Shown one piece after another: positions 11,176 through 40,943 of a stretch of DNA of 40,943 nucleotides. The notes beneath the pieces were generated by a model that worked only from the letters and a program-made list of their open reading frames with translations, was not told where the DNA came from and searched no databases. The stretch lies in IMG/VR virus record IMGVR_UViG_3300022752_000151, positions 1 through 40,943 of that record; one strand, given 5' to 3'. Positions within the stretch are counted from its first letter, which is position 1; each line of letters starts with the position of its first letter. This DNA comes from a virus. Both the position numbers and the translations under genes were made by a program.

Positions 11176-11192
11176 AAACAAAATATGTTTAT

Positions 11193-14314: not shown

Positions 14315-14961
14315 TATTTTCCGTAAACTAAATTATTCTTACCACCTTCTGCTCTTTGAATAGCAAAGTTAGAAGAATAGTCTTGTGTAACTTTATGCAA
14401 GAAATCTTTAATTACTTGTCTATCGATTTCAACTTCAGTTAAAGGTAATTCAAGAGATTTTACTTTTAAAACTTTTTTTAATTCTGATTTAAATGATGAT
14501 GATTTAAGTTTACCTGTATTATCTGTTTTATTTTTAGTTGTGATAAATACAGATTTTTTACCTTCATTAACATTGTGGTCAACTCCGCTAGTTGTTTTAA
14601 TAAGTTTTTCAAGTTTAGATTTTAAATCACTAATAATATCACTAGAAAATTTAATTTCTTTTTCAAATTTTGATTTGATTCTTGTTGGTACTTTTAAACC
14701 TTTATTATGTTCACCAACAACTTGTAATACCCTCTCTAATTGAGATACTGAATCAATCTTAAGAACACTTTTATCAATCTTTGGTTCTCTTTTTACAGGA
14801 GCAACTTCTTTCTTTTCTTCTTTTTTAACCACAGATTTTGTTTCCTTTGGTTGGATTTTATTTTTAATTTTTGATTCTAGTAGTTTTACCACTTCTTTCT
14901 TATTCTTTAAAAAGAATTTTAATTTTTCTAATTGTGCTTCAGTAAGTACGAACTTCATCAT
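14314..14961 (-). CDS. Tagged Lys-rich protein, 215 aa
   Basis: The tag MMKFVLTEAQLEKLKFFLKN is of the ITxxQLxxL class. Residues 20-80 are a Lys/Glu-rich, Pro-containing linker (KEEKKEVAPVKREPKIDKS), then a helical section with LERVLQVVGEHNKGLKVPTR, then a C-terminal beta-helix part ending NLVYGK. The basic composition would suit DNA contact inside a head, by inference. The start may be either of two adjacent ATGs (14961 or 14958). A variant element, ACTAATTATA, lies just upstream. Confidence 0.65.
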   Translation of the reverse strand: MMKFVLTEAQLEKLKFFLKNKKEVVKLLESKIKNKIQPKETKSVVKKEEKKEVAPVKREPKIDKSVLKIDSVSQLERVLQVVGEHNKGLKVPTRIKSKFEKEIKFSSDIISDLKSKLEKLIKTTSGVDHNVNEGKKSVFITTKNKTDNTGKLKSSSFKSELKKVLKVKSLELPLTEVEIDRQVIKDFLHKVTQDYSSNFAIQRAEGGKNNLVYGK

Positions 14962-15120: not shown

Positions 15121-15363
15121 TCACTTGCAGCTTGTTTTTGAAGTTGTAGTTGCGTTTAAACCACCAACAAATGTTTGACTAGTGATTGTTTTGCCATCTA
15201 CTTTTTCAATATCATCACCACAAAGTTCTTGTTTTGTTGTTGATGTTTGACTATTATAACCAGGAATTGATGTAGTTATAGTAGTTGTACATTGTTTGCA
15301 GGAATTATCCTCACAAGAAAATATTCCAATCAAAAGCGTTGAAAGTAAAATAAGATTTCTCAT
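15121..15363 (-). CDS. Surface lipoprotein, 80 aa
   Basis: A lipoprotein signal MRNLILLSTLLIGIFSC ends in Cys 17, followed by EDNSC. An acidic residue pair directly after the lipidated Cys is the Bacteroidetes export signal for outer-surface lipoproteins. The mature part is Thr/Ser-rich (KQCTTTITTSIPGYNSQTST) with a CGDD motif. Similar CKxCTTxTT lipoproteins are common in Flavobacteriia, as I recall. A TATATTTG box lies 5 bases upstream at 15368-15375. A phage-encoded surface lipoprotein could block superinfection; that is inference. Confidence 0.75.
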   Translation of the reverse strand: MRNLILLSTLLIGIFSCEDNSCKQCTTTITTSIPGYNSQTSTTKQELCGDDIEKVDGKTITSQTFVGGLNATTTSKTSCK

Positions 15364-15722: not shown

Positions 15723-15732
15723 ACTATTTATA
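15723..15732 (+). promoter_or_regulatory. ACTATTTATA element before the giant gene
   Basis: An exact copy ends 13 bases before the ATG at 15746. Confidence 0.5.
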
Positions 15733-15745: not shown

Positions 15746-18700
15746 ATGCCTTTTAAGTCCGAAAAACAAAAGAAGTATTTTTTTGCCAAATTAAACAGTT
15801 TACCTAAAGGAAGTCCTGAATATAACAAGTGGAAAAAAGTTGTTGATAAATTTGTAGCACATAGTGTGGATGTGTCTAAACAATTTTTAGATGAAGATTT
15901 TAAATCCCAAGAACAAAATTATATCAAACAAGGTATTAGACCTCAAATTGTTAAATCTTATATTGAAAGATTTAAAACAATTAGAGATAAAAATTATAGA
16001 CAACTTAATGACCAAATTCATGGTCTTGAGAATGTTAAAGATAGAAAAAATATAGACTCTTATAAAACATTCAAAGAACTTGAAACTATTGTTGATTATG
16101 TTAGTGGTCAAGTAGATTTAGAAGGTACATCACTTGGTTCTGACATTGAAATTGATGCTAAACCAATTTATGAAGACAACATATTTGAAATATATTATGC
16201 TGATTCGCCAAGAGCATGTATAAAATATAAAGGTAACATACCTTATGGTTGGTGTGTATCAAGAAATGATTCTTCTAATATGTATTATACATATAGATTT
16301 AAAGAATATGAACCTGCATTTTATTTTGTTAAAATAAAAGATAGAACAAAAAAGGAATTAGGATTCTTTAGTATGGTTGGTAATGTATTTAATGGACAAT
16401 TTAAAGACAAATATCATTTCTTTGTTTTACAAACTTTAAAAGGTGCAAAAATAGGAGATACAACAACAAAACAATATGTTGTTACTTCAGCAATGAATGA
16501 TGGTGACAAACAAATGTCTTGGAATGATATAGTTGCAATAGAACCAAGAATTGCAAATTTACAAGAGATATTTAAACCTGTACCGTTAGCACCTAAAGAA
16601 AAAGAGTTTTATTATAAATATAAAAATGGAACAGATGATACAACTTTTTGCAAATTAGATTATACAAATAAAAGAAGATATTTAGATGTTTATGTTAGAC
16701 AAGAGCAATTATTATCAGACGTTCAATTTAAATGTTTACCTGAAGATTTAAAAAATTTATATGTTGGATTTGGTGTTGGGTTATCAGAGAATCAGTTAGA
16801 ATTAATCAAAACAAATAAAAACTTATTAAAAAGATATAGGCAAATAACAGAAAAAAAATATGAAGAATATTTAAAAGGAACAAGAGGTATAAAATTTAAT
16901 TATACAGAATTATTAGTATTACCTGAAGATAAAAGAAAAGAATTTATAATTAAATTAGGTTCTTCAGATGATATTAGTAGTTTATTTAAATATTCACCAA
17001 AAGAAAATCATGATAAAATTATAAATATATTATTTAATATTGGTGGCAAAGAATTCATAATGAATTTGAGTTCAGAGGGTATTGATGGTTTATTAGCATA
17101 TTCATTAAAAGAATATCAAGATAAAATTATAACCATGTTATTTAATATTGGAGGTAAAGATTTTGTAATGAAATCGGATAGAAATGTTATTTTTGATTTA
17201 ATAAGAAATGCATTAACTAAATATCATGATAAAATTATTAATTCATTAATTAATATTGGTGGTGAGGAATTTATAATGAATTTGGATTCAATTGGTATTT
17301 ATAATTTAGTAACATATTCATCAGAACCTGATAAAATTATTAATGAATTATTAGATAAGGGTGGTGAAGAATTTATAATGAAATTGAATTCGAATGGTAT
17401 TGATTATTTAGTAACATATTTATCAGAACCTGATAAAATTATTAATAAATTATTAGATAAGGGTGGTGAGGAATTTATAATGAATTTGGATTCAATTGGT
17501 ATTTATTATTTAGTAACATATTTATCAGAACCTGATAAAATTATTAATAAATTATTAGATAAAGGTGGTAAAGATTTTGTAATGAAATTGAATAATGATA
17601 TTATTGATGATTTATTACGAAAATCTAGAGAACCTGAAAAAATTATTAATAAATTATTTAATATTGGTGGTAAAGAATTTATAATGAATTTAGATTCATC
17701 TGATATTAGTTATTTATTAAATTATTCTAGTGAACCTCAAAAAATTAAACATATTAAACAAATATTACAAAAATATGGTAAACTACCAAAAGAAGCAATG
17801 AATGAAAATTTAATGAAAACACCATTAGATGAAATATTTAAATCATTAACTTCATTGCAAGAAGAATTGAATGAACAGAACAAACTAAACATTAAAGAAA
17901 AAAATTTAGAAAAGGTTAAGCAGTTCTTATTGGAGAAAGAAATGTTGAATGAGATTTCTATAGATGCTGCTTATGAACAACATTATAAGGAGAAAGGTAT
18001 TCCAAGAAATATATTTGACCAAATAGTTGCTGCTGACCCATTCAATAAACCTGATTTCTTAAGTCCTTACTCTAGATGGATTTTAAAAAGATATAAAGAA
18101 GGTCATATTAAATTAGAAGATTTACCTGCTTTTACTGAATATTTAACAACATATAATCGTTATAAAGATAACTATAAAAATGTAGATTGGAATAAATTAT
18201 TTACTAAGGCTGATTTGTATAATGTTGTTAAGGATGACATTGCTTATTCACAAGCTAAAACAGGTAATGTAAATTTATGCGAACCAATAGAAGGGTCTGA
18301 AAAATTTTATGAAAATGAGAATTGGTGTATAATTGTTCCTAAAACAGAATATGCAGCTTGTTATTATGGTAGAAGCACAGAGTGGTGTACTGCATGGGGT
18401 GAAAAATCTTTTGATGAAAGGCATAAAGGAAAGACAAATAGATTTAAAGGTTATAATAATCGAGAACCATTATATATTATAATAAATAAGAATAATCAAA
18501 ACGAAAAATATCAATTTCATTTTGTCGACATGGATAGAGAGTCTAATTATAATGAGTCTTATGAATTTAGGGATAAAAATGATAATCTAATTACTCAAAA
18601 TAGCAATTTATTTAAAAAACTTATTAAAATTTTTTATGATAATAATACTTTTTTATCTGATGAAGCAAGTAACAAAGTAAAAGTTATGTATAAATTAGCT

Positions 18701-21700
18701 GTAAATAATTTAAAAAGAAGTGATATAACAGATTTTATTTTAAATTCAGAAAATAAAAAAGAAAGTATTAATTTATTAGATAGTAAATATGATAATTTAG
18801 GAACGGATTTTCTAAATGATTTAACTTGGAAAGATTTAAATCATTTTAATGTTTTCGAAAGAATTAACGGTGTTATATCACATTCTAAGAAGAATGCTGT
18901 TTATGATTTTTTAGTAAAAAATAATAATGTTATAAACAATTTAGATGAAGTTGGACTAGATTTTATGCTTAATAATACATCAAATCGAATGGAAACCGTT
19001 AATATATTATTAAACAATTATAATATTGTAAATAATATTAGAAATATAAGGTCGATACTTATAAGGGTAAAAAATCCAAAAGAAGTTATTAATTTTCTAA
19101 ATAAAAAATATAATGGTTTAGGTACAGATTTTATTAATAGTCTTTCATCAAATAGTCCTGGATTAACATCTGAAGATAAGATAAAATATTTAATACGAGA
19201 TTCACCAAATCCTGAAGAAATTAAAGAAATATTACAACAATATGGTATACTTCCAAAAAATGATTCTAATTCTCCAATAAATGAAATATTTAAATCATTA
19301 ACTTCATTGCAAGAAGAATTAAATGAACAGAACAAAGTAAATGTTAAACAAAGAAACTTAGAAAAAGTAAAGCAATTCTTATTGGAAAGAGAACTTTTAT
19401 CTGAAAAAGACAATAGACAATTTATTGTGAATAAGTTAGGCATGACACAAGAAGTAGCTGACTTTGCTCATAAGATTTCAGATAAATATTCAATTTGGAT
19501 TGCTAATGTTATTAAAAATAACTTTCCAAGTGGTTATAATATTATTGAGAATGAATTAAAAAACGTTATTGAAATGTTTAAGGATGAGAATAAACCTGTT
19601 TTAGATATCAAAAATTTAAATTGGGATGATGCATTAAATTATTATAATCTTTATACATACATAAAAGATTGGAGAGATAGTCCTGATGTTCCTTCAGTAA
19701 ACCTTAAAAATATGTCTTGGGAAGAGGCTGAAAGATTATCAAGAGAATGGCATTCATCTTTAGGTGGTGGTGGTAAAGTAAGTGATATATTAGACGAAAA
19801 AGATAAAATTATTCATAAATTTAGTAATGGTTTTTATTGGGTATTAAGAGAAGATAGTCGTTGTGAGAAATCAAGACAATCAATGGGTCATTGTGCTACT
19901 GCGTCAAAAAGTGATATGTATTTGTTTAGATTAATTAAAAATGATGAAGAGTTTATTACCGCTGATTGGCATCCAACCGATAGGTACATAATGCAATTAA
20001 AAGGTAAAGCAAATACAAAACCAAAAGAAATATATTATCCATATATAATGTGGCTAGTAGCAGATTCAGGATATATTGATGAATTAAGAACGAATAAAGG
20101 ATATAGCACAGAAACTAATTTTCATTTGTCGGATTTAAATCAACAGCAATTAAAACATGTTATATCTAAAAATCCAAATATTATAAACTTATTAGACATA
20201 TTAAGTATGTCAGAAGATAAAATTAAAAATATAGTAAATCTTTTAGGTGATGATTTAAATAAAGTTGTTATTAAATTAGCTACAGAAAAATTTGATGATT
20301 TATCTAATATTTTAATAATTAAAGATAATGCTTATAGTAAAAATTTAATTTCATTATTATTTAAATTTTTTGGTAAAAGTTTTATAAACAACTTGAATAG
20401 TAAAAATTTAAATTCTTTAATTTACAGACTAGTTGATTTAGAAGATGTGAAATTTGATGATGAGGATAAAGTTAAGGATAAAATCAAGTCTAAAATCATT
20501 GATTATATTTTAGAAATTGGTGGTGAAGAACTTTATTATAGATTAACCACAAAGGAGTTTTTAAATAATACTACTATGGGTTTTATGTATATTAAATCAA
20601 AAACAAAAGGAGTTAATAAATTTATTTTGAATTTATTAAAAAAAAATGGAAAAGAAATGTTAATGAATTTTAATGAAAACGAAATTCAATATTTATTCTC
20701 ATATATGAAGGAAACAAGTATTATTAAATTTATTAGACTTTTTATTAAAATTGGTGGTGAAGATTTTTTAAATAAAATAGCTAAAAATGAAAGTTTCTTT
20801 AATAGTTTGTATGTTTACATATATAAAATACAAAATAAAGATAAAATCATTAATGATATGATTACGATTGGTGGTAAAAATTTTCTAATGAATTTAAATG
20901 AAGAAAATATAAAGATAATTTTATGGCTTACATCAAATCGTGATGAATTAATCAATAAAATAATTAATATTGGTGGTGAAGATTTTATAAAGAGTTTAAG
21001 TGTTAATACTGTTTATGATTTTATTAGTGGTTCAAGTTATGAAAATAAAAATCAAATAAAAAGTTTATTTCAACAATATGGTAAACTTCCAAAAGAAGAA
21101 CCAAGAACACCTATGAATGAAATATTTAATTCATTAACTTCATTGCAAGAAGAACTTAATGAACAGAATAAAGTAAATCTTAAACAAAAGAATTTAGAAA
21201 AGGTTAAGCAATTCTTATTAGAAAAGAAAAATCTTTTAAATGAGATTTCCATTCAAGATGCTTATAATCAATATTATAAAGAAAAAGTATCTCAAGAAGA
21301 TTTTAATGAAATTGTTAAAGCCGACCCTTTTTCTAAACCTAATTTTTTAAGTAAATATTCTAGATGGATGATAGGGAGGTATATACAAAAACATATTAAA
21401 TTAGAAGATTTACCTGCTTTTACTGAATATATTAAAACTTATGAAAGATATAAAGATAAGTATAAAAATGTAGATTGGAATCAATTATTTACTAAAGATG
21501 ATTTATTTAATGTTGTTAAGGATGATTTAGCTTATTCACAAGCAAAAACAGGTACAGTAAATTTATGTGAACCTATTGATGGTTCAGAAAAGATTTATGA
21601 AGACTCTAAATGGTGTATAATTACCCCTAAAACTGAATATACTGCATGTTACTATGGAAGAAATACTGAATGGTGTACAGCATGGGGTGAAATGTCTTTT

Positions 21701-24700
21701 GATGAAAGACATAAGGGTAAAACAAGTAGATTTGAAAGTCATCATAGACAAGGACCATTATACATTATAATTAATCGAAATAATCAAGATGAGAAGTATC
21801 AATTTCATTTTGAAAGTAATCAATTTATGGATGTAAAAGATAGAGTAGTTAATAAAAATAGTGAAACATTTAAGGAGTTAATTGATATATTTTCAAAGGA
21901 TGAAATTTTAGATAAATTAAAAGGAGAAACAAGAGTTAAATTATTAATTTCAAGTGGTAGAATATTAGAAAAATTAACAAAAGAAAATATAATATATTTA
22001 AACGAATATGATATAAAACATATACTTAGTATAACACCAAAAGAAAATCATGAAAATATTATTATGAATTTATTATCTGTTGGTGGTAAAAAAATTGCTA
22101 TGAGTTTAGTAAACTTCCCTGATATTATAAGTTATATTTCAGAAGAAAATCGTCTTAAATTTATTATTAATTTATTAACTGTTGGTGGTAAAAACTTTTT
22201 AATGAAATTTTATTTTTTTAGTGATTTATTAAATTATTTTCGAGATACTAAAATTACTACAGATATTATAAATCTAATGATTAAAATTGGTGGTAAAGAA
22301 TTTTTAGTTGATAAATTACCTTTTTCAGAAGAACTTTTAAATATGATAATATATTATAAAGGTTTAAATTTTATTGATAAATTATTATCTATTGGTGGTA
22401 AAGAATTTGTAATGAATTTATCAAAAAATGATAAAAACATAGATAGAATAATGAAAGCAGGTGGAAGAAGTATTTCAGGAAATGAGCCTTCAAAAATTAT
22501 TATAGCTAAAAAATTATTATCTGTTGGTGGTAAAGATTTTATAATGAAATTAAGTAGGTATTATAAACCTCTTAATATTATATTAGATTATATAGGAAAA
22601 GGAAAAGTTGATAGTTTAATCAATTATATTATTAAAATTGGTGGTAAAGATTTTTTAATTAATTCAGACAGTCATGTTATATATAGGTTATTAAATTATT
22701 CATCAAATCCTGGAAAATTATTTATTAGTTTATTATTAATTGGTGGTGAAGAATTTGTAATGAATTTTAATTTTTTTCATTATAACAGTTTTACTACTCT
22801 TGAAAAAGAAAATGTATTTAAATATTTTGAAAATAGTAAAGTTTCTACAGATGTTATAAATATAATACTTAAAATTGGTGGTAAAGATTTTGTAATGAAT
22901 TTAAAAGAAAGAGAAGTATTAATAATATTACTTAATTCAGGATTTGGTAGTGATGCAAGGGATAAAATGATAAAAAAGTTAATATCTATTGGTGGTAAAG
23001 AATTAATATTAAAATTTAAAAATGTAAATTTAATAGTACCAAGTGGTGATTATCAACTTCTTAAAAAAACAATACAAATTGGTGGTAAAGAATATGTGGA
23101 AAAATTAGATTATAATGTCATGACTGATATTATAATAAACACACCAAAAGAAAAGATAAATGAATTATTTGTTATGATGCTTAATCTTGGTGGTAAAGAA
23201 TTTGTAAAAAATTTAGATGAAGAACTTTTAAAAGATATTTTTAGAACTGAATTTTTAAAAGATGAGACAAAAACAAAAATAAGAAATATAATTAAACAAA
23301 ATAATATTAAAATTAAAATTGATGAACAAATAAATTTAGAAAGAAAAGAATTATTATCTGAAAAAGATAATAGAGAGAATATTGTAAAGAAATTAGGATT
23401 ACCACAGGAAGTTGCTGACTTTGCTCATAACATATCAGATAAATATTCTTTATGGATTGCTAAAACTCTTAATGATATACCAAGAGCGAATAGTTTTATA
23501 AAAGCTTATCAATCAGGTTCTATCAATAGTGATAATTTAAAATTTAGACTTAGTGGTTACAGAGAAGGATATGAACAAATTATCAGAATGTTTAAAGATG
23601 ATAATAGACCACCTTTAGATATTAAAAATTTAAGTTATGGTGATGGATTGAATTTTAATAATGTTTATAATTATATAAAAGATTGGAGAGATAATCCGAA
23701 TGTTCCTACATTGAATCTTAGAAATATGTCTTGGCAAGAAGCTGAAAGATTATCAAGAGAATGGCATGAATCTTTAGAAGCTAGTGGAAAGGTTTCTTAT
23801 ATATTAGATGATAAAGATGAAATCATACATGAATTCAATGATGGTTTCTATTGGGTTTTAAGAAAAGATAGTTATTGTGAGAAATCAGAAAAATCTATGG
23901 GTCATTGCGCTACTGCGACAAATAGTAATATGTATCTGTTTAGATTAATAAAAGATGATGAAGAATTTATTACAATTGATTGGCATCCAAATGAAAAATA
24001 TGTAATTCAAATAAAAGGTAAAAAGAATTCAAAACCAAAAGAAGAATACTATCCATACATAATATGGTTAATAGCGGATTCAGGTTATATTGGAGAATTA
24101 AGAACAGATATAGGTTATAAACCTGAAAGTAATTTTCATTTAGAAGATTTAAAATCTGAAGAATTAATTTATGTTATATTTAAAAATCCAAAAATTAAAG
24201 GAATTGGAAAATTATTGGCTAATTCTTCAGAACCTGATAAAATTATTAATGAATTATTAGATAAGGGTGGTAATGATTTTATAATGAAATTAGGTGAAGA
24301 TAACATTCTTAATTTATTAGAATTTTCATCAGAACCCGAACAAATTTTAAATATTTTAGGTGAAAAGGGTAAAAACTTTATAATTAAATCACGCATGGAT
24401 GTAATTAGATTACTATTAAATGAATCAAAAGAACCTAAAAAAATTCTTAACGCATTATTAAATATTGGTGGAAAAGAATTTATAATGAATTTGGATACAA
24501 ATATGATTAATTGGTTATTACAAAAATCAGATAAATTATCCGAAACTGAAAAATTTATTAATATATTACTTACTATTGGTGGTAAAGAATTTATAAAATA
24601 TTTAACCGATGAAAATATTACTTATATGGTAAAAATTTCTAAAGGAATTGAAAACCTTTTTTATATGTTAGGTGATAAAGGTAAACAATTTATAATAAAT

Positions 24701-26989
24701 ATGATTTCAAATCCAAGTCTTATTAATTTTTTATTAGTCGTTTCCAAAGACCGTGATGCATTTATTAATATGTTATTTAATATTGGTGGCGAAGAATTTA
24801 TAATGAATTTGAATTCACAAGTTATTAATAGTTTATTAAAATATTCATCAGAACCTGAAAAAATTATTAATTTATTAGGTAAAAAAGGTAAAGAATATAT
24901 AAATGGACTTAAAAAACAATTGAGTACATATAGTGGGTATGAATATTTTATAGATACATATGTAGTTAATGTTATTGGACTTTCAAAATCACCTACAAAA
25001 CTTATTAATTTATTAGGAGAAGAAGTTGGAAATAAAATTATGGATATGTTACCTAATGTAGGAAATGAAAAGTTTTTTCATATAATTCAATTGAGTCCTG
25101 TACCAAAAGAGATTTTTAATTTATTAGGTGCTAAAGGAAAAAAATTCTTTCAAGAATTAGATAACAATAATAAAAATAGATTAATTCACGACTCAAAAAA
25201 TCCTAATGAAGTTAGAGAAATCTTACAAAAATTAAATACACCTCTAAATGAAATCTTTAATTCATTAACGTCATTACAAGAAGAACTTAATGAACAAAAC
25301 AAAGTAAACATTAAAAAAAAGAATTTAGAAAAAGTAAAACAATTCTTATTGGAAAAAGACAATAGAGATTTTATTGTAAAAAAGATGGGTTTACCACAAG
25401 AAATAGCTGATTGGGCGCATGAAATATCAGATAAGTATTCTTTATGGATTGCTAATCAAATTAAAAAGGAATTAGATAGATTAAATTTGGGAAGACCACT
25501 TACCCCATATGAAATTTATGCATTAACTGGTTGGGGAACAACATATAGAAATATAATTTCAATGTTTAAAGATGATAATAGACCACCTTTAAATATTAAA
25601 AATTTAAATTTAGATGATGCAGAAGATTTTTATAATATCTATACCTACATAAAAGATTGGAGAGATAATCCTAATACTCCTACATTAAATCTTAGAAATA
25701 TGAGTTGGGATGAAGCCGAAAGATTATCAAGAGAATGGCATGAATCTTTAAAAGCAGCAGGTAGAGTATCTTATATCCTAGATGATAAAGATGAAATCAT
25801 ACATGAATTTAATGATGGATTCTATTGGGTTTTAAGAAAAGATAATCGTTGTGTAAAATCAGCAGAGTCTATGGGTCATTGCGCTACTGCGTCAAGAGGT
25901 GACATGTATTTATTCAGATTAATAAAAAATGACGAAGAATTTATTACTGCCGATTGGCAACCAAATGAAAAATATGTAATTCAAATAAAAGGTAAAAAGA
26001 ACTCAAAACCAAAAGAGGAATATTATCCATATATTATATGGCTAATAGCTGAATCAGGATATATTAATGAATTAAAAACAAATACAGGATATAAACCTGA
26101 AACTAATTTTCATTTGTTGGATTTAAATAGTGAACAATTAATTTATGTTTTGAATAAAAATAAAAATATTATAAATCTTAGTTATTTATTATATAATTCT
26201 TCAGAACCTGATAAAATTATTAATGAATTAATAAATGTTGGTGGTAAAGATTTTGTAATAAAATTAAACGATAGTAACGCTAATGCTTTATTAACCTATT
26301 CATCAGAACCTGAAAAAATTATTAAATTTGGTGGTAAAGATTTTCTAATGAAAATAGCTAAAGATAGTATTAAATACATAATTGGCGATTTTACTTCTAA
26401 AGCATATAAAGAATATGATGAAGATAAGGATGAGAAAATATTAAATGATTTATATGATTATATATATGATTTTAAAAATACATTAATAAATATTGGTGGT
26501 AAAGATTTTATAATGAAATTTAAACCCCAATTTATTATTAATTATTTTATTAGTCATAATTCAGGAATAATAACTGACAATGATATTAATAGATTATTAA
26601 GTATTGGTGGTAAAGATTTTGTAATGAAATTAGACTATGACCAAATAACATATGGTTTAATAAAAAAAACATCAAAAGAAAATAGAGATAATATTATAAA
26701 TAAATTATTAACTATTGGTGGTAAAGATTTTATAGAAAATTGGAGTTTAAATAATTTTGATATTAATTATAATTTTTCATTAGCATACTCATCAGAAAAA
26801 AATCGTGAAAATGTTAAAAATTTAATACAAAAATATACAGGTGGAGAACCTACAACGCCAATGAATGAAATCTTTAATTCTTTAAGTTCATTGCAAGAAG
26901 AATTAACAGAACAAAGAAAAATAACCATAAAGGAAAGTAATTTAATGAAGGTTCAAAATTTCATTAAAATGAAGAAAAATAATCATTAA
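15746..26989 (+). CDS. 3,747-aa modular protein, probable effector polyprotein
   Basis: The N-terminus MPFKSEKQKKYFFAKLNSLP resembles short phage proteins (SEKQRRYL type). Six modules follow: 0 (type A, residues 1-736), 1 (type B, 737-1220), 2 (type C, 1221-1833), 3 (type B, 1834-2539), 4 (type C, 2540-3203), 5 (type C, 3204-3747). Cores: type A ACIKYK...GWCVSR; type B AACYYGRSTEWCTA, LYIIIN, YQFHF; type C SMGHCATA, MYLFRL, QIKGKKNSKPKEEYYPYI. Type C recalls the HC motif and QxKGxxN end of PcfJ-like domains. Most modules then have about 33-residue repeats with IGGKEFIMNL. Linkers LTSLQEELNEQNK...NLEKVKQFLLE separate modules. There is no signal peptide or membrane segment. No stop or frameshift occurs in 11.2 kb. 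A tape-measure role is unlikely given the modular cores. Confidence 0.75.
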   Translation: MPFKSEKQKKYFFAKLNSLPKGSPEYNKWKKVVDKFVAHSVDVSKQFLDEDFKSQEQNYIKQGIRPQIVKSYIERFKTIRDKNYRQLNDQIHGLENVKDRKNIDSYKTFKELETIVDYVSGQVDLEGTSLGSDIEIDAKPIYEDNIFEIYYADSPRACIKYKGNIPYGWCVSRNDSSNMYYTYRFKEYEPAFYFVKIKDRTKKELGFFSMVGNVFNGQFKDKYHFFVLQTLKGAKIGDTTTKQYVVTSAMNDGDKQMSWNDIVAIEPRIANLQEIFKPVPLAPKEKEFYYKYKNGTDDTTFCKLDYTNKRRYLDVYVRQEQLLSDVQFKCLPEDLKNLYVGFGVGLSENQLELIKTNKNLLKRYRQITEKKYEEYLKGTRGIKFNYTELLVLPEDKRKEFIIKLGSSDDISSLFKYSPKENHDKIINILFNIGGKEFIMNLSSEGIDGLLAYSLKEYQDKIITMLFNIGGKDFVMKSDRNVIFDLIRNALTKYHDKIINSLINIGGEEFIMNLDSIGIYNLVTYSSEPDKIINELLDKGGEEFIMKLNSNGIDYLVTYLSEPDKIINKLLDKGGEEFIMNLDSIGIYYLVTYLSEPDKIINKLLDKGGKDFVMKLNNDIIDDLLRKSREPEKIINKLFNIGGKEFIMNLDSSDISYLLNYSSEPQKIKHIKQILQKYGKLPKEAMNENLMKTPLDEIFKSLTSLQEELNEQNKLNIKEKNLEKVKQFLLEKEMLNEISIDAAYEQHYKEKGIPRNIFDQIVAADPFNKPDFLSPYSRWILKRYKEGHIKLEDLPAFTEYLTTYNRYKDNYKNVDWNKLFTKADLYNVVKDDIAYSQAKTGNVNLCEPIEGSEKFYENENWCIIVPKTEYAACYYGRSTEWCTAWGEKSFDERHKGKTNRFKGYNNREPLYIIINKNNQNEKYQFHFVDMDRESNYNESYEFRDKNDNLITQNSNLFKKLIKIFYDNNTFLSDEASNKVKVMYKLAVNNLKRSDITDFILNSENKKESINLLDSKYDNLGTDFLNDLTWKDLNHFNVFERINGVISHSKKNAVYDFLVKNNNVINNLDEVGLDFMLNNTSNRMETVNILLNNYNIVNNIRNIRSILIRVKNPKEVINFLNKKYNGLGTDFINSLSSNSPGLTSEDKIKYLIRDSPNPEEIKEILQQYGILPKNDSNSPINEIFKSLTSLQEELNEQNKVNVKQRNLEKVKQFLLERELLSEKDNRQFIVNKLGMTQEVADFAHKISDKYSIWIANVIKNNFPSGYNIIENELKNVIEMFKDENKPVLDIKNLNWDDALNYYNLYTYIKDWRDSPDVPSVNLKNMSWEEAERLSREWHSSLGGGGKVSDILDEKDKIIHKFSNGFYWVLREDSRCEKSRQSMGHCATASKSDMYLFRLIKNDEEFITADWHPTDRYIMQLKGKANTKPKEIYYPYIMWLVADSGYIDELRTNKGYSTETNFHLSDLNQQQLKHVISKNPNIINLLDILSMSEDKIKNIVNLLGDDLNKVVIKLATEKFDDLSNILIIKDNAYSKNLISLLFKFFGKSFINNLNSKNLNSLIYRLVDLEDVKFDDEDKVKDKIKSKIIDYILEIGGEELYYRLTTKEFLNNTTMGFMYIKSKTKGVNKFILNLLKKNGKEMLMNFNENEIQYLFSYMKETSIIKFIRLFIKIGGEDFLNKIAKNESFFNSLYVYIYKIQNKDKIINDMITIGGKNFLMNLNEENIKIILWLTSNRDELINKIINIGGEDFIKSLSVNTVYDFISGSSYENKNQIKSLFQQYGKLPKEEPRTPMNEIFNSLTSLQEELNEQNKVNLKQKNLEKVKQFLLEKKNLLNEISIQDAYNQYYKEKVSQEDFNEIVKADPFSKPNFLSKYSRWMIGRYIQKHIKLEDLPAFTEYIKTYERYKDKYKNVDWNQLFTKDDLFNVVKDDLAYSQAKTGTVNLCEPIDGSEKIYEDSKWCIITPKTEYTACYYGRNTEWCTAWGEMSFDERHKGKTSRFESHHRQGPLYIIINRNNQDEKYQFHFESNQFMDVKDRVVNKNSETFKELIDIFSKDEILDKLKGETRVKLLISSGRILEKLTKENIIYLNEYDIKHILSITPKENHENIIMNLLSVGGKKIAMSLVNFPDIISYISEENRLKFIINLLTVGGKNFLMKFYFFSDLLNYFRDTKITTDIINLMIKIGGKEFLVDKLPFSEELLNMIIYYKGLNFIDKLLSIGGKEFVMNLSKNDKNIDRIMKAGGRSISGNEPSKIIIAKKLLSVGGKDFIMKLSRYYKPLNIILDYIGKGKVDSLINYIIKIGGKDFLINSDSHVIYRLLNYSSNPGKLFISLLLIGGEEFVMNFNFFHYNSFTTLEKENVFKYFENSKVSTDVINIILKIGGKDFVMNLKEREVLIILLNSGFGSDARDKMIKKLISIGGKELILKFKNVNLIVPSGDYQLLKKTIQIGGKEYVEKLDYNVMTDIIINTPKEKINELFVMMLNLGGKEFVKNLDEELLKDIFRTEFLKDETKTKIRNIIKQNNIKIKIDEQINLERKELLSEKDNRENIVKKLGLPQEVADFAHNISDKYSLWIAKTLNDIPRANSFIKAYQSGSINSDNLKFRLSGYREGYEQIIRMFKDDNRPPLDIKNLSYGDGLNFNNVYNYIKDWRDNPNVPTLNLRNMSWQEAERLSREWHESLEASGKVSYILDDKDEIIHEFNDGFYWVLRKDSYCEKSEKSMGHCATATNSNMYLFRLIKDDEEFITIDWHPNEKYVIQIKGKKNSKPKEEYYPYIIWLIADSGYIGELRTDIGYKPESNFHLEDLKSEELIYVIFKNPKIKGIGKLLANSSEPDKIINELLDKGGNDFIMKLGEDNILNLLEFSSEPEQILNILGEKGKNFIIKSRMDVIRLLLNESKEPKKILNALLNIGGKEFIMNLDTNMINWLLQKSDKLSETEKFINILLTIGGKEFIKYLTDENITYMVKISKGIENLFYMLGDKGKQFIINMISNPSLINFLLVVSKDRDAFINMLFNIGGEEFIMNLNSQVINSLLKYSSEPEKIINLLGKKGKEYINGLKKQLSTYSGYEYFIDTYVVNVIGLSKSPTKLINLLGEEVGNKIMDMLPNVGNEKFFHIIQLSPVPKEIFNLLGAKGKKFFQELDNNNKNRLIHDSKNPNEVREILQKLNTPLNEIFNSLTSLQEELNEQNKVNIKKKNLEKVKQFLLEKDNRDFIVKKMGLPQEIADWAHEISDKYSLWIANQIKKELDRLNLGRPLTPYEIYALTGWGTTYRNIISMFKDDNRPPLNIKNLNLDDAEDFYNIYTYIKDWRDNPNTPTLNLRNMSWDEAERLSREWHESLKAAGRVSYILDDKDEIIHEFNDGFYWVLRKDNRCVKSAESMGHCATASRGDMYLFRLIKNDEEFITADWQPNEKYVIQIKGKKNSKPKEEYYPYIIWLIAESGYINELKTNTGYKPETNFHLLDLNSEQLIYVLNKNKNIINLSYLLYNSSEPDKIINELINVGGKDFVIKLNDSNANALLTYSSEPEKIIKFGGKDFLMKIAKDSIKYIIGDFTSKAYKEYDEDKDEKILNDLYDYIYDFKNTLINIGGKDFIMKFKPQFIINYFISHNSGIITDNDINRLLSIGGKDFVMKLDYDQITYGLIKKTSKENRDNIINKLLTIGGKDFIENWSLNNFDINYNFSLAYSSEKNRENVKNLIQKYTGGEPTTPMNEIFNSLSSLQEELTEQRKITIKESNLMKVQNFIKMKKNNH
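16990..17740 (+). repeat. IGGKEFIMNL repeats, module 0
   Basis: Seven in-frame repeats of about 99 bases. Each encodes EPDKIINxLLDKGGEEFIMNL-type helix pairs. Some copies are nearly identical at DNA level (for example around 17345, 17430 and 17535), so expansion here is recent. Confidence 0.85.
22060..23230 (+). repeat. IGGKEFIMNL repeats, module 3
   Basis: Eleven copies of IGGK(E/D)F with irregular spacing of about 30-45 residues and much more divergence than in module 0. Similar arrays occur in module 2 (about 20510-21000), module 4 (24230-25190) and module 5 (26210-26750). Confidence 0.8.
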
Positions 26990-26991: not shown

Positions 26992-27001
26992 ACTATTTAT
27001 A
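26992..27001 (+). promoter_or_regulatory. ACTATTTATA element before 27015
   Basis: Exact copy, starting three bases after the giant gene's stop codon and ending 13 bases before the next ATG. Confidence 0.5.
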
Positions 27002-27014: not shown

Positions 27015-28460
27015 ATGAAAGCAGTTATAACAAAATCACAACTTGATAGAATTAAAAATTTCATCAATGAAACAAGAGAAATACCTAAATCTAAAGTATT
27101 AAAAGAAAAAGAACATTCTGATAAACAGTTAAAAGCATTTGATGTAGATAATGATGGTAAACCTTTTGAACCTGAAGATTTCGCTGCTTTAAGAGCAATG
27201 AAAAAGATTACAAAAGAAGAATTAAAAGGTGGTCAGAAAAAGTTAGATAAAAATAAAAATAATAAAATTGATGCTGATGATTTTAAACTTCTAAGAAAAC
27301 AAAAACAAATGGATGAAGGAAGTGATTGTGGATGTGGTGATTCTGAAGATTATAATGACACAAGATATATGTTCTTTTCAAACCTTGAGCAAATGATGCG
27401 TCAAGCAAGAATGCTTCTTCAAATGGATGAAGATATGCTTGAAGACCTTTTGAATAACGGTCATGATTGGGCTGCTGACCATATTGCTGAAGCAAAAAAT
27501 AATATGGACCAAGTATTTGATTTCATTATGGGTGAAATGCATGGTGAAGGCGAAGATGAATCTTGGCACAATGAAAAAGAAATGGTTTATGAAGCTGAAG
27601 CTTGGGCATCAGATGGTGGTTATTATAATAAACCTGAAAGAAGTATATCAGTAAGCAAACAAGAAGCGGATTTTATAAATAATACTATTGAAGAGTTTAA
27701 ACAAGACATACAAGACCAAGAAACAGTAATTAGAGTTGATAAGAGTAAAAGAGGACAAATTAATTGGAAAATCATCCAAGATTTACAAAAAAATTGGGGT
27801 ATTAAATTTGAAAATGATAATGAAGATATTGGGATAGATTTGTTTTGGTTAGCACCTAATCAAAATATGGAAGATGTGAATGATGGATTGGAATATGCTC
27901 ACCAATTATTTTATGATAGAATAATTAAGGAAGGAATGCGTTTAAAAAAAAAAGCATTCGTTTCTAAAGAACTAAAACATCATTTAGATGAAAATATTCC
28001 TTTATGTGAATCAGAATTTAGATATGGTTCTCAAAAACATATTGAACTTTTAAAAGAAGTTAAAGAACTTTACAATAAAGGTCTTATTAGCTTAAATGAA
28101 GCTGATGAGTTTATTGTGAATGAATTTGACCCAACTCCTGTTAAGATTAAAGGTGTTGGTGAAGTATATCTTGGTTTAATTCAAGAAGATTATGAATCTG
28201 ATGAAGAACTTTTATCTGAAGCAGTTTATCAAGGTAAAAAAGTTCAATTAGGTAAACCAAAGCGTGGTGGAAGTAAAAAATTCTACGTTTATGTGAGAAA
28301 TCCAAAAACAGGTAAGGTAAAGAAAATTACTTTTGGACAAAAAGGAGTAAAGATTAAAAAGAATAATCCTGAAAGAAGAAGAAGTTTTAGAGCAAGACAT
28401 AAATGTAGTCAACAAAAAGATAGACTTTCCGCAGCATATTGGAGTTGTAGGGCTTGGTGA
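27015..28460 (+). CDS. Tagged EF-hand protein with YWSC C-terminus, 481 aa
   Basis: Tag MKAVITKSQLDRIKNFINET. Two EF-hand-like loops follow: DVDNDGKPFEPEDF (about residues 44-57) and DKNKNNKIDADDF (78-90). A DCGCGD cluster comes next, then helical YMFFSNLEQMMRQARMLLQM and NNGHDWAADHIAEAKNNM. Residues 396-480 carry LLSEAVYQGKKVQLGKPKRG, FYVYVRNPKTGKVKKITFG and RRRSFRARHKCSQQKDRLSA then AYWSCRAW, a C-terminal module widely seen in marine T4-like and other large phages, usually unnamed and often near head genes, as I recall. LLSEA is another (L)xxE site that a prohead protease could cut. Calcium binding is inferred from the loops. Probably a head-associated protein. Confidence 0.7.
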   Translation: MKAVITKSQLDRIKNFINETREIPKSKVLKEKEHSDKQLKAFDVDNDGKPFEPEDFAALRAMKKITKEELKGGQKKLDKNKNNKIDADDFKLLRKQKQMDEGSDCGCGDSEDYNDTRYMFFSNLEQMMRQARMLLQMDEDMLEDLLNNGHDWAADHIAEAKNNMDQVFDFIMGEMHGEGEDESWHNEKEMVYEAEAWASDGGYYNKPERSISVSKQEADFINNTIEEFKQDIQDQETVIRVDKSKRGQINWKIIQDLQKNWGIKFENDNEDIGIDLFWLAPNQNMEDVNDGLEYAHQLFYDRIIKEGMRLKKKAFVSKELKHHLDENIPLCESEFRYGSQKHIELLKEVKELYNKGLISLNEADEFIVNEFDPTPVKIKGVGEVYLGLIQEDYESDEELLSEAVYQGKKVQLGKPKRGGSKKFYVYVRNPKTGKVKKITFGQKGVKIKKNNPERRRSFRARHKCSQQKDRLSAAYWSCRAW

Positions 28461-35620: not shown

Positions 35621-35656
35621 AAAAAAAAATGCCCAAAGTTTTAAATTTGGGCATCT
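35621..35656 (-). terminator. Terminator of the metalloprotease gene
   Basis: ATGCCCAAA / TTTGGGCAT stem (9 bp) with an A/T loop and nine T residues on the minus strand, 26 bases past the stop codon. Confidence 0.85.
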
Positions 35657-35681
35657 TTAAATTTTAATATTTTTTTAAAAA

Positions 35682-38465
35682 TTATTTAATAAATTCAAAA
35701 AAGTTACTCCAATAAACCTGTGTACCTTGTGTTATTGATACTCTATAACACCAAATTCCTGAAGATGGAGGTGTTGGTTGAGGATTCATTAAGAACTCAT
35801 TATCACCAACTATAATACTAGGTGAGGTTCTACCTCCACAAGTAGGATTGCTTGCAGGATTACAAGGAGCTAATGTGTATCTACATACATTAGTAGAGAT
35901 ACTTTGAGTACTATTACTCTTAAAATTAATATACCAACGATTATCACTCTTCTTATATACTGTTACAGTAGGTGTAGAAGGAGGAGGAGTTGTACTAACA
36001 GTTATATAAGAAGTTCTAGTAAATGTATTACTTCCGGCAGAGTTAGTTGCAGTCAAACTAACCGTATAACTTCCACTTGTAGTATAAGTGGTGGTAGGAT
36101 TCTTTAAAGTTGAGGTCTGACCATTTCCAAAGTTCCAAAACCAAGAAGTGGGATTCCTACTTGAACTATCAATAAACTGTACAGTAAGTGGAGAAACCCC
36201 TGTAAGTGGAGTTGCTGAGAAATTTGCTACAGGAGCAAGTACTGTTGAAGGATTAACAGTTATATAAGCAGTCCTTATAAATGCATTATTACCTCCTGCA
36301 TTAGCAGCACTAAGAGTAACTGTATATGTTCCGGGTTGAGTATAAGTTACAGAAGGATTCTTAACTGTTGAGGTTACACCATTTCCAAAGTTCCAAAACC
36401 AAGAAGTGGGATTATTAGTAGTTAAGTCTGTAAAATTTACTGTCAATGGAGCAGTACCTGTAAGAGGAGTTCCTGTAAAGTTTACTACAGGTGGAAGAAC
36501 TGTTCCACTTACATTAATAAGATTAACCTTTTCTATTGTATTCTGACCATTCTTATTAATAGCCAATAGAGAAACTGTATAAACTCCTGCACTTGAGAAG
36601 GTAAATCTAGGATTTCTTTCTTGAGAAGTGCCTATTATTGTTCCACTACTATTCTTAAAGTTCCAAACAAATTGAAATGAATTAGTACTAGATAAATTAA
36701 CAAATTGTACTGGAACAGGTGCTGCACCGGTGAGTCTAGAAGCTTGAAACTCAGGTACGGGAATTCCATTATTACCAACAATCCATACATAATCATTTTT
36801 AGTAGCAGAACTAGTTCCAACTGCATTAGAGGCATTAAGGGTAACTCTATAAATACCTGCATTAGCATAAAGATTAGTAGGATTTTTTTGAGTTGAGGTT
36901 TGATTATCACCAAAATCCCAAGCCCAAGTATTAGGAATACCTGTACTCTTATCTTTAAATGTAACCGCTGTTGGACCTGTTAGATTTTGATATGTTTTAT
37001 ATTCAAAAGTACCTTCTACACCAGTAGAGTAAGTTGCTGCAAAATCAGCAATTGGTTGAGTGGGTGTTCCAGGTGATACCCAACAGGCTCTAGCAGTAGC
37101 CTCAAGTGGGTAACCTCTACACACATCAGTATTAGGTGTAGCAGTTCTTGTTTGATAACCATTTCCATCAGGATAAACTTCACCAAGATTATTAGGTATA
37201 CAAGAAGACCAAGGACCATAAGTCCAAGTACAATTATTTGTAGGACCACCTGCTACAGTAGAATTCATTAAGGTTCTTCTCATAACTTCCTTAATTTGAG
37301 GAAAAAAGAAACCTTTAGAGAGATTTATACCACCATTGTTTTGACAATAACTCATTATAGTTCCTTGTCCACCAGAAGATTTAGTAAGGAAAGAACAACC
37401 TGAGGTATATGCTGTACTCTCACCTTGCCAACAAGAATCTAATCTACCTATACTTCCATTAGGCTTATACCATCCACACCACTGAGTATGTCTAGAGCCA
37501 TATAAATGACCTTCCTCATGTGCTACTACATTAATAGTCCAACTGTAATTATTATTTAAGTTTACATTAGTAAATACTCCGCTAACACAAAATTTAATGT
37601 TGGATGTTGGTCCTATTCCTGAAAGATAAGCTAATCCTCCATAATTTTTAAGAGTCAAGAGATGAAGGAGGTCACCACTCTCATTTCTATAATCTGAGGC
37701 AAATTGCAATAATACTTGACTTGAGTTACAAATTAATGCATTATTTACTCCTGTACACATTCTAAAGTATGCACTTGTATCTGTATTAACTATTACCTTA
37801 AAAAGTGTATTAGTAATACCAAGTTCTTGATAATAAGGTAAGACACCTGCATGAACTGATTGCGCCCAATTAAGACAGTTTTGTACAGAACTTCCAAGTG
37901 CTTTGTAGAGGTCAAAGTCTACTACATATACCTTTCTAACTGATTGAGGAAGAATAGAACTAGATTGTGAGATTATATTCTCAGCAGTAGTAGGTAAGAC
38001 ACTTTGTGCTTGTCCAACGGGGCTATTATATTCTACAGGTGCATCTGTTTCTAGAACTTGCCCCTCATTAGATTGTAATACAAGACTATCATCAGTTATA
38101 TTAAGAGAGCCTATAGCACCAATAATTCCAGATTCTGTTACAGTTAAAACTCCAAAGGAATTACCACTCTTAAGACGATAATGTTTAGGTGCTTTAAGAT
38201 TTCTTACTTTTTTCCTACCACCTTTACCTTGAGTAAAGACTTCAGGAGTTGAAAGGAAGATTTCTTCAGCCTCTACATTAGCATATTGTTCATTAAACTT
38301 AAATTTAAGTTTTTTGTTTTTATTTCTAAAGCCATCTACAGACTTTTGAAATTCTTTGTTAAATTTTTTCTTTTTATAAATCTCTACAAATTCTTGTGAG
38401 AATGAATTAAAAGAAATTAAACTTAAACATGTTAGTAGTAAAATTATTTTTTTCATAGTTTTCAT
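35682..38465 (-). CDS. Secreted metzincin metalloprotease with PKD domains, 927 aa
   Basis: Sec signal peptide (MKTMKKIILLLTCLSLISFN, cleavage near SFSQ). A propeptide-like region follows to about residue 170. The catalytic domain (about 175-405) has HEEGHLYGSRH (residues 316-326, the HExxHxxGxxH zinc site), several Cys, and the Met-turn TIMSYC, as in reprolysin/adamalysin-like (M12B) proteases. Residues about 411-450 look like a thrombospondin type 1 repeat (CTWTYGPWSSC). Four PKD domains come next (about 490-825; WAWDFGDN, then two near-identical SWFWNFGNG copies), and a final 90-residue beta module. This is a typical Flavobacteriia secreted protease. An ACTATTTA element upstream (38470-38479) links it to the element's own late class. 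The DNA is richer in C and G than its neighbours, which suggests recent transfer from a host. Confidence 0.88.
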   Translation of the reverse strand: MKTMKKIILLLTCLSLISFNSFSQEFVEIYKKKKFNKEFQKSVDGFRNKNKKLKFKFNEQYANVEAEEIFLSTPEVFTQGKGGRKKVRNLKAPKHYRLKSGNSFGVLTVTESGIIGAIGSLNITDDSLVLQSNEGQVLETDAPVEYNSPVGQAQSVLPTTAENIISQSSSILPQSVRKVYVVDFDLYKALGSSVQNCLNWAQSVHAGVLPYYQELGITNTLFKVIVNTDTSAYFRMCTGVNNALICNSSQVLLQFASDYRNESGDLLHLLTLKNYGGLAYLSGIGPTSNIKFCVSGVFTNVNLNNNYSWTINVVAHEEGHLYGSRHTQWCGWYKPNGSIGRLDSCWQGESTAYTSGCSFLTKSSGGQGTIMSYCQNNGGINLSKGFFFPQIKEVMRRTLMNSTVAGGPTNNCTWTYGPWSSCIPNNLGEVYPDGNGYQTRTATPNTDVCRGYPLEATARACWVSPGTPTQPIADFAATYSTGVEGTFEYKTYQNLTGPTAVTFKDKSTGIPNTWAWDFGDNQTSTQKNPTNLYANAGIYRVTLNASNAVGTSSATKNDYVWIVGNNGIPVPEFQASRLTGAAPVPVQFVNLSSTNSFQFVWNFKNSSGTIIGTSQERNPRFTFSSAGVYTVSLLAINKNGQNTIEKVNLINVSGTVLPPVVNFTGTPLTGTAPLTVNFTDLTTNNPTSWFWNFGNGVTSTVKNPSVTYTQPGTYTVTLSAANAGGNNAFIRTAYITVNPSTVLAPVANFSATPLTGVSPLTVQFIDSSSRNPTSWFWNFGNGQTSTLKNPTTTYTTSGSYTVSLTATNSAGSNTFTRTSYITVSTTPPPSTPTVTVYKKSDNRWYINFKSNSTQSISTNVCRYTLAPCNPASNPTCGGRTSPSIIVGDNEFLMNPQPTPPSSGIWCYRVSITQGTQVYWSNFFEFIK
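36120..36413 (-). repeat. Direct repeat between PKD domains 3 and 4
   Basis: A 35-base stretch is identical at 36120-36154 and 36379-36413 (encoding NPTSWFWNFGNG), and the surrounding PKD codons are also very similar, so one PKD domain arose by recent duplication. Confidence 0.75.
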
Positions 38466-38469: not shown

Positions 38470-38479
38470 TTTAAATAGT
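38470..38479 (-). promoter_or_regulatory. ACTATTTAAA element before the metalloprotease
   Basis: ACTATTTA is exact on the minus strand, four bases before the first ATG or 13 bases before the second (38456). Confidence 0.4.
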
Positions 38480-38668
38480 ATGATAACTAAAAAAAGTACA
38501 AATTTACTTTAATATTTTTTAAAATTGTATTTGAATCATTTAAATTAAAATTGTACTTAATAGTTTCAGTAACAAGAAATTATATTTATTTTTCTATTTT
38601 TTAGTTATAATTCAAATTCATATATTATATTATTTAACTTAAAATTGTACAATTCTAAGTTTTTAATT

Positions 38669-38715: not shown

Positions 38716-39804
38716 TTAATTATTTAAAGTTTTATAAAAATATTTTGTCCATTTTTTAAACCCTTCTGTCATCATAGGTGGATAATGTTGTCTAGAAATA
38801 TCATCCGCAGTAATATTACCAATATACTTTTTTCTAAACGCTGATGATGGATTAATATCAGCATCAGAAGTCTTTCTAGCATAATCATTTGGAACAACAA
38901 ATTTTTCACCTCCTGGCATTATAACATCAATATCATTTGGTTGATTAATTTTTAATTCTACTAATTTAACCCAAGAATTCCATAACATTTGTGAAATTTG
39001 TGCTTCACTTGATTTAGTTAATTCAGAAATTCTTTTTAAGAATTTTACATATTCTTTAGCCAATTTAACAGTACCTTTTGTAATATCAATAATCTTATTA
39101 TTACTATCTTTAATCTTATCAGGTGTTTTAAAACTACCTGATTTACCAATAATACTATTTTCTTTATCAAGGTCTTTATAAAGATTTAAATTAATTGAAT
39201 CAATACAACCTAATCTTCCAATAATAAGTTGAGTAGCAAATGCTGCTTTTGGATATCCAAGAGCAGGTATTTTTAAACATTCTAAATAAATACTAAACAT
39301 AGCATCTTCTTTTGCAATACCACTACTTTTATTATATTTATTAATTAATGGTTTTAATATGGAATAATATTGGTCTCTATTAGTCCAAACAGTATCAATA
39401 CCATCCATTCTAAAATTAAGTACCAATTGAGAAAATGCTTTTGGTATATCTTGATAATCAAGCGATGGGTCTATTAATCTACCATTTTTTCTTAAAAATG
39501 TCATTAATATTGGAAATTTAGGTACAACATCATACCATCTTTGTTGTTGAGTTGCAATAACAAAAATAATCATTTCCGCTAATTCATCAGGACCTGATTG
39601 TGCATATTGGTTGATTAGTGGGTTGTATTTACAAAAACTATTATCAAGAGGTTTAGTTAAATCAAGTAGATTTGCTTGATTCGGTGATATGATAGGTACT
39701 CTTGGTTTATCTACATCTGTATCATATGGTGATGTAATTAATCCTTCTTCTGTATAACCTAACTTTTCAAGAATTAATCTTTTTAATATTCTTTTTAAAC
39801 TCAT
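38716..39804 (-). CDS. Tagged helix-hairpin-helix-like phage protein, 362 aa
   Basis: Tag MSLKRILKRLILEKLGY, nearly the same as at 12506. An Asp/Pro-rich linker leads to an all-helical domain from about residue 70. Its centre, YLECLKIPALGYPKAAFATQ and then LIIGRLGCIDSINLNLY (about 173-210), looks like a helix-hairpin-helix (IPALGYPKA) of the DNA-glycosylase type. I recall related proteins (IPGLG.VKAAF..QL....GCLDTHN) from T4-like phages without assigned function. The last part is polar. A 13-bp inverted repeat covers the sequence just before its start codon, and a variant ACTAATTACA element lies in it. Confidence 0.65.
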   Translation of the reverse strand: MSLKRILKRLILEKLGYTEEGLITSPYDTDVDKPRVPIISPNQANLLDLTKPLDNSFCKYNPLINQYAQSGPDELAEMIIFVIATQQQRWYDVVPKFPILMTFLRKNGRLIDPSLDYQDIPKAFSQLVLNFRMDGIDTVWTNRDQYYSILKPLINKYNKSSGIAKEDAMFSIYLECLKIPALGYPKAAFATQLIIGRLGCIDSINLNLYKDLDKENSIIGKSGSFKTPDKIKDSNNKIIDITKGTVKLAKEYVKFLKRISELTKSSEAQISQMLWNSWVKLVELKINQPNDIDVIMPGGEKFVVPNDYARKTSDADINPSSAFRKKYIGNITADDISRQHYPPMMTEGFKKWTKYFYKTLNN

Positions 39805-39885: not shown

Positions 39886-40943
39886 TTAAAGCATCATCTT
39901 TGCTATATCTTCATAGGAATTTGTAAAGTCCTCAAGCATAAAGCAAGTATCTGCATCTTCCTTGTTCTCAACAAGTAATCCCCTTGCTTCTGTGTGTAAT
40001 AAAAGTATATCAAATACTGATACAGCAGGTAATTTACTATAATGATTAATCACATCAATCACATTAGATGAATCAAGTGATGCAACAGGTCTGCCATTAC
40101 TATCTTCATCAATAAAGATATACTCTTTGTTTTCCAAATCCAAGATAGTTACAAGAGTATTAGTTGATTCCGACTGTAACATCTGTGTATTGGTAATCGT
40201 TTGAGGATACCACAATTTATTTGACTCAGGGTATTCTCTTTCCATTAAACCAAATACTGATTCAACAGATGCTAATGAACGACCATTGAAGTTCCTTACA
40301 TCAATCATTACATATCTGTAACCTTTTGCAAGTGTATCATCAATATTAATATCAACATATTCAGCACATGGTCCTTGATGGTGTCTTACATCACCTGAAT
40401 GAAGGTTGTTTTCAAACTTTAAGTTTTGGAATGATAACAAACCTGTTTTCTTATCACCAACAAATGTTGCTGACAAATCCAAATCTTCACTACCATTTTC
40501 ATCCATCCAATAAACAAATGCACGAATAATCTTTGCATCAGGATTATCAAATGCAATTCTTTGTCCTCTAATCCTTGGCTTCAAAGACATATTCAATGAA
40601 CGCATATTTGTTGGTAATGGAATCTTCCTAAGTTCATCATCAATATAAACTTTACCAAGTTTATCAAGATTTGAAAACTTAGTTCTAAGAATATCCCAAA
40701 TTGATTGCTGAATAGCACCAATTGTTCTAACAGGAAGTGCTTCAAGAATAGGAAGAGGGTATGCGGTTCTAGAACCTTTTATTGTTACTCTTCTATAATC
40801 TTGTTTTTTTGCTCTTGATTCAAAGTGAGTATATACTTCAAACAATACTTTATTGGAAGTCTTTGCTGCTGCTGATGCAAAATATTCCATAATCATTTTA
40901 ATATTGTTTGGGTTATTCCTAACCAATGCATCCATTTTTCTTG
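39886..40943 (-). CDS. MXAN_6230/TerD-like protein, C-terminal part (incomplete)
   Basis: Open to the right edge with no upstream stop, so the start is not in the window. The pattern LVRNNPNNIKMIMEYF, then KVLFEVYTHFESRAKK, YPLPILEALP, the segment IPLPTNMRSLNMSLKPRIRG and QRIAF, then VYWMDENGSEDLDLSATFVG, HSGDVRHHQGPCAEYVDI, GYRYVMIDVRNFNGRSL and GLMERE follows the C-terminal half of the MXAN_6230/SCO0854 family. In that family a TerD-like beta domain (calcium-binding, DLDLSA and SGDV loops) follows an alpha-helical part, and an N-terminal RING-type section is usual. Related ter genes are linked to stress and phage defence. It has a terminator at 39832-39864. The ACTATTTATA class is not seen, as the upstream region lies outside. 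Confidence 0.7.
   Translation of the reverse strand, partial: RKMDALVRNNPNNIKMIMEYFASAAAKTSNKVLFEVYTHFESRAKKQDYRRVTIKGSRTAYPLPILEALPVRTIGAIQQSIWDILRTKFSNLDKLGKVYIDDELRKIPLPTNMRSLNMSLKPRIRGQRIAFDNPDAKIIRAFVYWMDENGSEDLDLSATFVGDKKTGLLSFQNLKFENNLHSGDVRHHQGPCAEYVDINIDDTLAKGYRYVMIDVRNFNGRSLASVESVFGLMEREYPESNKLWYPQTITNTQMLQSESTNTLVTILDLENKEYIFIDEDSNGRPVASLDSSNVIDVINHYSKLPAVSVFDILLLHTEARGLLVENKEDADTCFMLEDFTNSYEDIAKMML

Follow-up and report, generated by a model that had tools for sequence, protein, structure and literature searches.

Metzincins, metzincins of phage origin and phage-encoded T9SS cargo proteins are already known. In Listeria, the phage-derived secreted metzincin Mtz, together with Tim, is associated with higher sensitivity to phage lysis and with virion release (PMC8235301). 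The protease examined here is likewise a secreted metzincin of phage origin; the Mtz/Tim locus differs in its Gram-positive host, in being domesticated and in pairing Mtz with a TIMP-like lipoprotein, and no TIMP-like partner was recognised beside our protease. The Cryophage T9SS cargo proteins (PMC7468147) are also phage-encoded secreted enzymes with a C-terminal tag, from Bacteroidota phages, but they bear the known T9SS type A domain, which our protease does not. Bacteroidota themselves have secreted reprolysin-like (M12) metalloproteases (Reprolysin_2 to _5) of the same catalytic family, with HExxHxxGxxH, MSYC, a signal peptide and a propeptide. In contrast to these, the phage protein falls in a separate clade, has an HTQWCGW...GRLDSC version of the active-site region and has a C-terminal domain that is not the T9SS tail. 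Finally, the ADAM/adamalysin proteases, including the snake-venom metalloproteinases, have the same predicted catalytic fold and the same layout of a pro-domain followed by a metzincin domain. With ~11-21% identity and no disintegrin domain in our protease, this is a likeness of fold and not family membership.

The window, meaning the whole 40,943-base IMG/VR virus record that was analysed, is AT-rich and carries one tRNA-Met. The ORF at 35682..38465 (-), whose coordinates were exact as first noted, encodes a pre-pro-metzincin of 927 aa, assigned from the ORF, Pfam and the closest relative. The N-terminus, MKTMKKIILLLTCLSLISFNSFSQ, is a Sec signal peptide by inspection (Sec/SPI type, residues 1-23, 38397..38465 (-)) that ends in FSQ and lacks a lipobox; the structural model has a helix at residues 3-20. 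The propeptide (residues 24-173, 37947..38396 (-)) is conserved in the L104 protein, a phage protease described below, and the model aligns with the ADAM17 pro/metalloproteinase structure 9o54, at low model confidence. The adamalysin/reprolysin catalytic domain was delimited by Pfam and Foldseek to residues 174-403 (37257..37946 (-)). Reprolysin_5 matched residues 180-376 with an E value of 5.5e-15 and 56.6 bits against a curated cut-off of 27, which identifies a reprolysin-like M12 metallopeptidase. In the zinc site HEEGHLYGSRH (residues 316-326, 37488..37520 (-)) the H, E, G, H and H columns are invariant in alignment A1, and the Met-turn MSYC (residues 371-374, within GTIMSYC, 37344..37355 (-)) is invariant in alignments A1 and A3. 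An HExxHxxGxxH zinc site combined with a Met-turn defines a metzincin, and the full secreted metzincin with signal peptide, zinc site and Met-turn described in the initial annotation is confirmed by the ORF, the motifs and Pfam. No PHROG family matched the protease.

A Cys/Trp-rich module (residues 411-461, 37083..37235 (-)), TSP1-like by eye, is common to the L104 and L113 phage proteases. The original TSP1-like label holds in so far as the pattern W..C..G.QTRT..C is present and conserved in these two other phage proteases, but the module run alone against Pfam matched no family at E≤1 and the name TSP1 is unproven. The four PKD domains first proposed are borne out (residues 466-825, 35991..37070 (-)); PKD_4 matched in four stretches above its cut-off (4.3e-52). 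The C-terminal β-sandwich domain (CTD; residues 829-927, 35685..35981 (-)), which was overlooked in the initial annotation, is common to other phage-encoded secreted proteins.

The structural model covers residues 1-466 and is coarse, with a mean pLDDT of 59. Foldseek with the model of the catalytic domain retrieved snake-venom metalloproteinases and ADAMs (E about 1e-8 to 1e-7, TMt ≤0.76), and the predicted fold of the domain is that of the adamalysin/ADAM proteases. The disintegrin and cysteine-rich domains are absent after the protease domain, where PKD domains and the unnamed CTD are found instead, so the protein is not a member of the ADAM family proper.

Neither the whole protease nor its N-terminal half gave matches as a single query against viral contigs. 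Viral relatives came up only when the viral contigs were scanned with a family alignment, which returned 44 loci. Most matches on genome contigs and plasmids were set aside because they covered PKD only. The closest relative found, the L104 protease, is encoded on a 464-kb phage contig and is 41% identical over residues 32-461 (blastp, E 2e-88). This contig has a terminase, and reading of its ORFs revealed nucleotide-metabolism and DnaJ/GrpE-like genes beside the protease. Searches of 50,697 phage records by tblastn with four members of the clade described below produced no catalytic relative. Related proteases were found in 47/395 Bacteroidota genomes and, by profile search, in 174/399 genomes of a single order, that of the Chryseobacterium assembly G001 and thus Flavobacteriales.

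A tree was built from 71 catalytic domains, including the best bacterial (Flavobacteriales) matches. Fourteen phage proteases (window, L104, L105, L106, L108, L109, L110, two from L111, L112, L113, L117, L122 and L139) form one side of a branch (support 88/91, recovered in 89% of bootstrap trees), with all bacterial rows on the other side. So far the members of this group come only from uncultured phages. The initial annotation, which described the protein as typical of a free-living flavobacterium, had called for a phylogeny with bacterial homologues; the tree places the window protease with phage proteases to the exclusion of bacterial ones. It pairs with L104 (99/85) and then with L117 (100/97). 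Other viral metzincins are scattered among the bacterial ones. The close pairs of phage proteases are under purifying selection, with dN/dS of about 0.16 for L109/L110 and 0.09 for L105/L106. Within the clade, L108 (9500-11143) reads HELGHNFNSKH, with Asn in place of the usual Gly of the zinc motif, and in the L111/L122 record (G415, 106 kb) three secreted metzincins, 1338 to 2403 aa long and each with numerous Fn3-like repeats, are encoded in tandem.

The records that carry these proteases have terminase, endolysin, DNA polymerase, tape-measure, virion-structural and adenylosuccinate synthetase-like (PHROG) genes, and on this ground they are considered phages. Phage contigs with exported ADAM-like proteases span 9 kb to 464 kb, and those at the small end are fragments. 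The distance from the protease to an M15-type endolysin is ~1 kb in L105 and L106, that to an amidase ~1 kb in L108 and L109, and that to an endolysin-like ORF ~0.8 kb in L104. The L117 protease is found between the tape-measure and other large structural genes. L113 is the exception; its protease adjoins a DNA polymerase and not a virion module.

We consider it quite improbable that the protease is carried in the particle, where it would digest surface protein layers at adsorption. PKD and similar modules are known from phage tail proteins, and there are phage contigs with metzincins that lack a signal peptide (L140, L145) and are possible virion parts. However, those metzincins lie elsewhere in the tree, no tail gene adjoins the protease in the window, and a signal peptide plus propeptide indicates export, while particle assembly takes place in the cytoplasm. 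The metzincins without a signal peptide in L140 (9524-20266), L144 and L145 reach 2305 aa, have Thr/Pro-rich repeats and come from viral records of 107-215 kb; L140 and L144 each have three in tandem, and these proteins could be virion enzymes.

Base composition had been said to set the protease gene apart from its neighbours. This is correct for total GC, which is 0.34 compared with ~0.20-0.33 in most neighbours (one has 0.40). It does not extend to synonymous codon choice, which is phage-like; GC3 is 0.15 and GC at fourfold sites 0.09, values that match those of the neighbours. Codon position 2 (0.47) accounts for the excess, which therefore reflects the amino-acid composition of a Thr/Ser/Pro/Gly-rich protein. 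An intrinsic terminator directly after the stop codon (35625..35658 (-), 13-pair stem and T-run) is real, as first claimed. By its synonymous codons, the start element described below, its own terminator and a closest relative in a phage contig, the protease gene is a settled, resident gene of the phage genome. Recent capture of a host gene, or a mis-joined contig, would account for the higher total GC and for the bacterial-looking domain set, but is extremely improbable given that the synonymous codons are those of the neighbours, the start element is that of the phage and the closest relative is in another phage. The initial view of a cargo gene from a free-living flavobacterium is not supported, for these reasons and because the phage clade has no sampled bacterial member and the protein has no T9SS tail. 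The gene is thus no recent acquisition from a flavobacterium, and the same observations make mis-assembly of the window at the protease very unlikely.

The start-proximal element reported initially was recovered as ACTATTTA, located at 38472..38479 (-), 14 nt before the protease start. Among the 15 copies in the window, 12 are ≤28 nt upstream of ORF starts, and it is the most enriched upstream 8-mer in the window (binomial 1e-16). It precedes the protease and 11 other window ORFs, including a 3747-aa ORF and other large ORFs; further copies are at, for example, 15723-15730 (+) and 26992-26999 (+). Judged by the genes that bear it, ACTATTTA may be a late element. The ACTATTTA-bearing genes were tested for a shared LxE leader, and the result was not significant. 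A candidate promoter box, TAAATTTG, at 38499..38506 (-) and position -41, fits the Bacteroidota TAnnTTTG -7 box by pattern match. Another sequence of the Bacteroidota -7 box type, TACATTTG, precedes ORFs 37-411, 1642-2022, 2077-2502 and 4627-5325, and the ACTATTTA- and TACATTTG-bearing ORFs of the window make up two gene classes. Several window ORFs (6760-8145, 9721-11181, 12506-12952, 13890-14294, 14314-14961, 27015-28460 and 38716-39804) begin with a short amphipathic leader (e.g. IKRLILE, ITxxQLxxLxxFINE), possibly a capsid-targeting sequence.

These elements bear on the time of expression. If the protease were exported early to mid infection, it could strip the infected cell of receptors and so keep other phages from adsorbing. 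Such superinfection exclusion would suit an exported protease with binding modules and a CTD that may keep it on the producing cell, and the TAAATTTG box and the L113 relative beside a DNA polymerase also point that way. We nevertheless think it unlikely, as most relatives lie beside lysis or structural genes and ACTATTTA also precedes the 3747-aa ORF and further large ORFs.

The CTD has no Pfam or NCBIfam match. Nine other clade members have homologous C-termini, so that the domain is present on 10/14. A CTD profile found it in 9/38 viral records, the window and eight others, and in 0/395 Bacteroidota genomes, for which the viral search served as the positive control. It was also absent at the bacterial loci found by profile, where the sequence ends ~1.5 kb past the match, making this weaker evidence than the 395-genome search. 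The link of the window protein to the other CTDs is at its weakest with the window left out of the model (E 0.001 among 68 proteins), but it stands against L113 alone (4e-10) and as a full-length match placed exactly at the C-terminus. The CTD sequences in the alignment differ too much for a DNA-pattern scan. Five neighbouring ORFs of record G416 (91 kb) end in the CTD, and two of these are small secreted proteins without a protease. AlphaFold modelled the domain confidently as a β-sandwich (pLDDT 84.5), and no structure reached E≤0.001 in a fold search, where the resemblance was limited to generic Ig/Fn3-like sandwiches. The CTD was also considered as a relative of the T9SS type A tail and rejected, there being no profile relation (hhalign P 0.12-0.33).

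The window protease itself has no match to Por_Secre_tail (PF18962/TIGR04183) and so does not qualify as known T9SS cargo. Elsewhere, the viral-contig metzincins at L115 (9320-11728) and L121 (9527-11686) do have a T9SS type A sorting domain, and these phages likely use the T9SS of the host. The absence of a T9SS tail, the usual route out, counts against cargo that feeds the infected host with peptides from protein matter or that attacks neighbouring cells or grazers, as do the distinct phage lineage and its own C-terminal domain. The frequency of related secreted proteases in Bacteroidota genomes given above and the reported phage-encoded T9SS cargo enzymes (PMC7468147) would fit such a role, which on balance we regard as rather unlikely.

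The distribution of the CTD offers a clue to what it does. L105, L106 and L117, which are the clade members with a lipobox, all lack the CTD; it is found on 10/11 of the others, L104, the closest relative, being the one without. This alternation, in which two of the three lipobox members are sisters, is suggestive of an anchoring or sorting role for the CTD. Tentatively, the CTD could be a phage-made sorting or anchoring tag that directs exported phage proteins to the infected cell's surface without use of the known T9SS tail, although we would not put this above a possibility. Such a tag would span diverse Bacteroidota phages, and proteases as well as other proteins, including the five neighbours of the 91-kb virus.

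The window is linked to a described phage by the 3747-aa ORF (15746..26989 (+)), which bears ACTATTTA and whose N-terminal part is 50-53% identical over about 370-390 aa to the 595-kb phage LR756511.1. This phage, the closest by that ORF, has no protease of this family, and the gene is therefore accessory and not essential in that group. A PKD match in LR756511 was discounted as a protease relative, since it sits in a tail/baseplate-like region with no protease. The 3747-aa ORF has five similar linker copies (SLQEELNEQNKVN.K..NLEKVKQFLLEK) between repeated domains and may be a polyprotein or a fusion of proteins from inside the virion; other window ORFs contain related domains. Neither an endolysin nor a terminase was recognised in the 41-kb window, and the direct neighbours of the protease are ORFs without assigned function. 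The neighbours 38716-39804 and 39886-40935 (-), the latter matching phrog_33734, had no relatives when scanned against viral contigs, so there is no wider synteny. Small ORFs at 13218-13652 (-) and 15121-15363 (-) each have a signal peptide or lipobox. The TAnnTTTG boxes and the protein family are the grounds for assuming a host from the Bacteroidota. A large uncultured tailed phage of Bacteroidota is the best explanation for the window, a 41-kb fragment of what is likely a huge genome.

The reading we prefer, with a probability of about 0.5, is that the protease is a resident phage zymogen, exported to cut host surface or envelope proteins late in infection, aiding release and preventing re-binding. 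The zymogen-type, adamalysin-like metzincin would be exported by the infected host via the Sec system and, on losing its propeptide, would act outside the inner membrane, probably on the surface layers or outside of the infected cell. Binding to polymer or protein targets may be provided by the Cys/Trp and PKD modules, and the β-sandwich may sort it to the envelope or cell surface or keep it there. Expressed together with the late genes of the phage, it would cleave surface or envelope proteins of the host towards the end of infection; the envelope would then fail more easily and progeny would escape re-binding to host debris. Export, activation, timing, place of action, substrate and benefit are all proposed here as parts of one scheme. 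Late action in release and against re-adsorption is favoured because relatives lie near endolysins and tail genes and because of the start element, and the precedent of Listeria Mtz makes the release idea reasonable.

A phage-only exported adamalysin-like lineage with its own CTD was not found in the families, records and partial literature searched. Phage biology does not count exported ADAM-like proteases among its recognised components, but they turn up repeatedly in phage contigs and form partly their own lineage. Should they work at the host surface, it would mean that phage proteins reshape infected Bacteroidota cells from the outside. The CTD profile serves to find more such proteins, and the CTD allows a direct test of whether, in a phylum known for the T9SS, phages bring an export or anchoring tag of their own.
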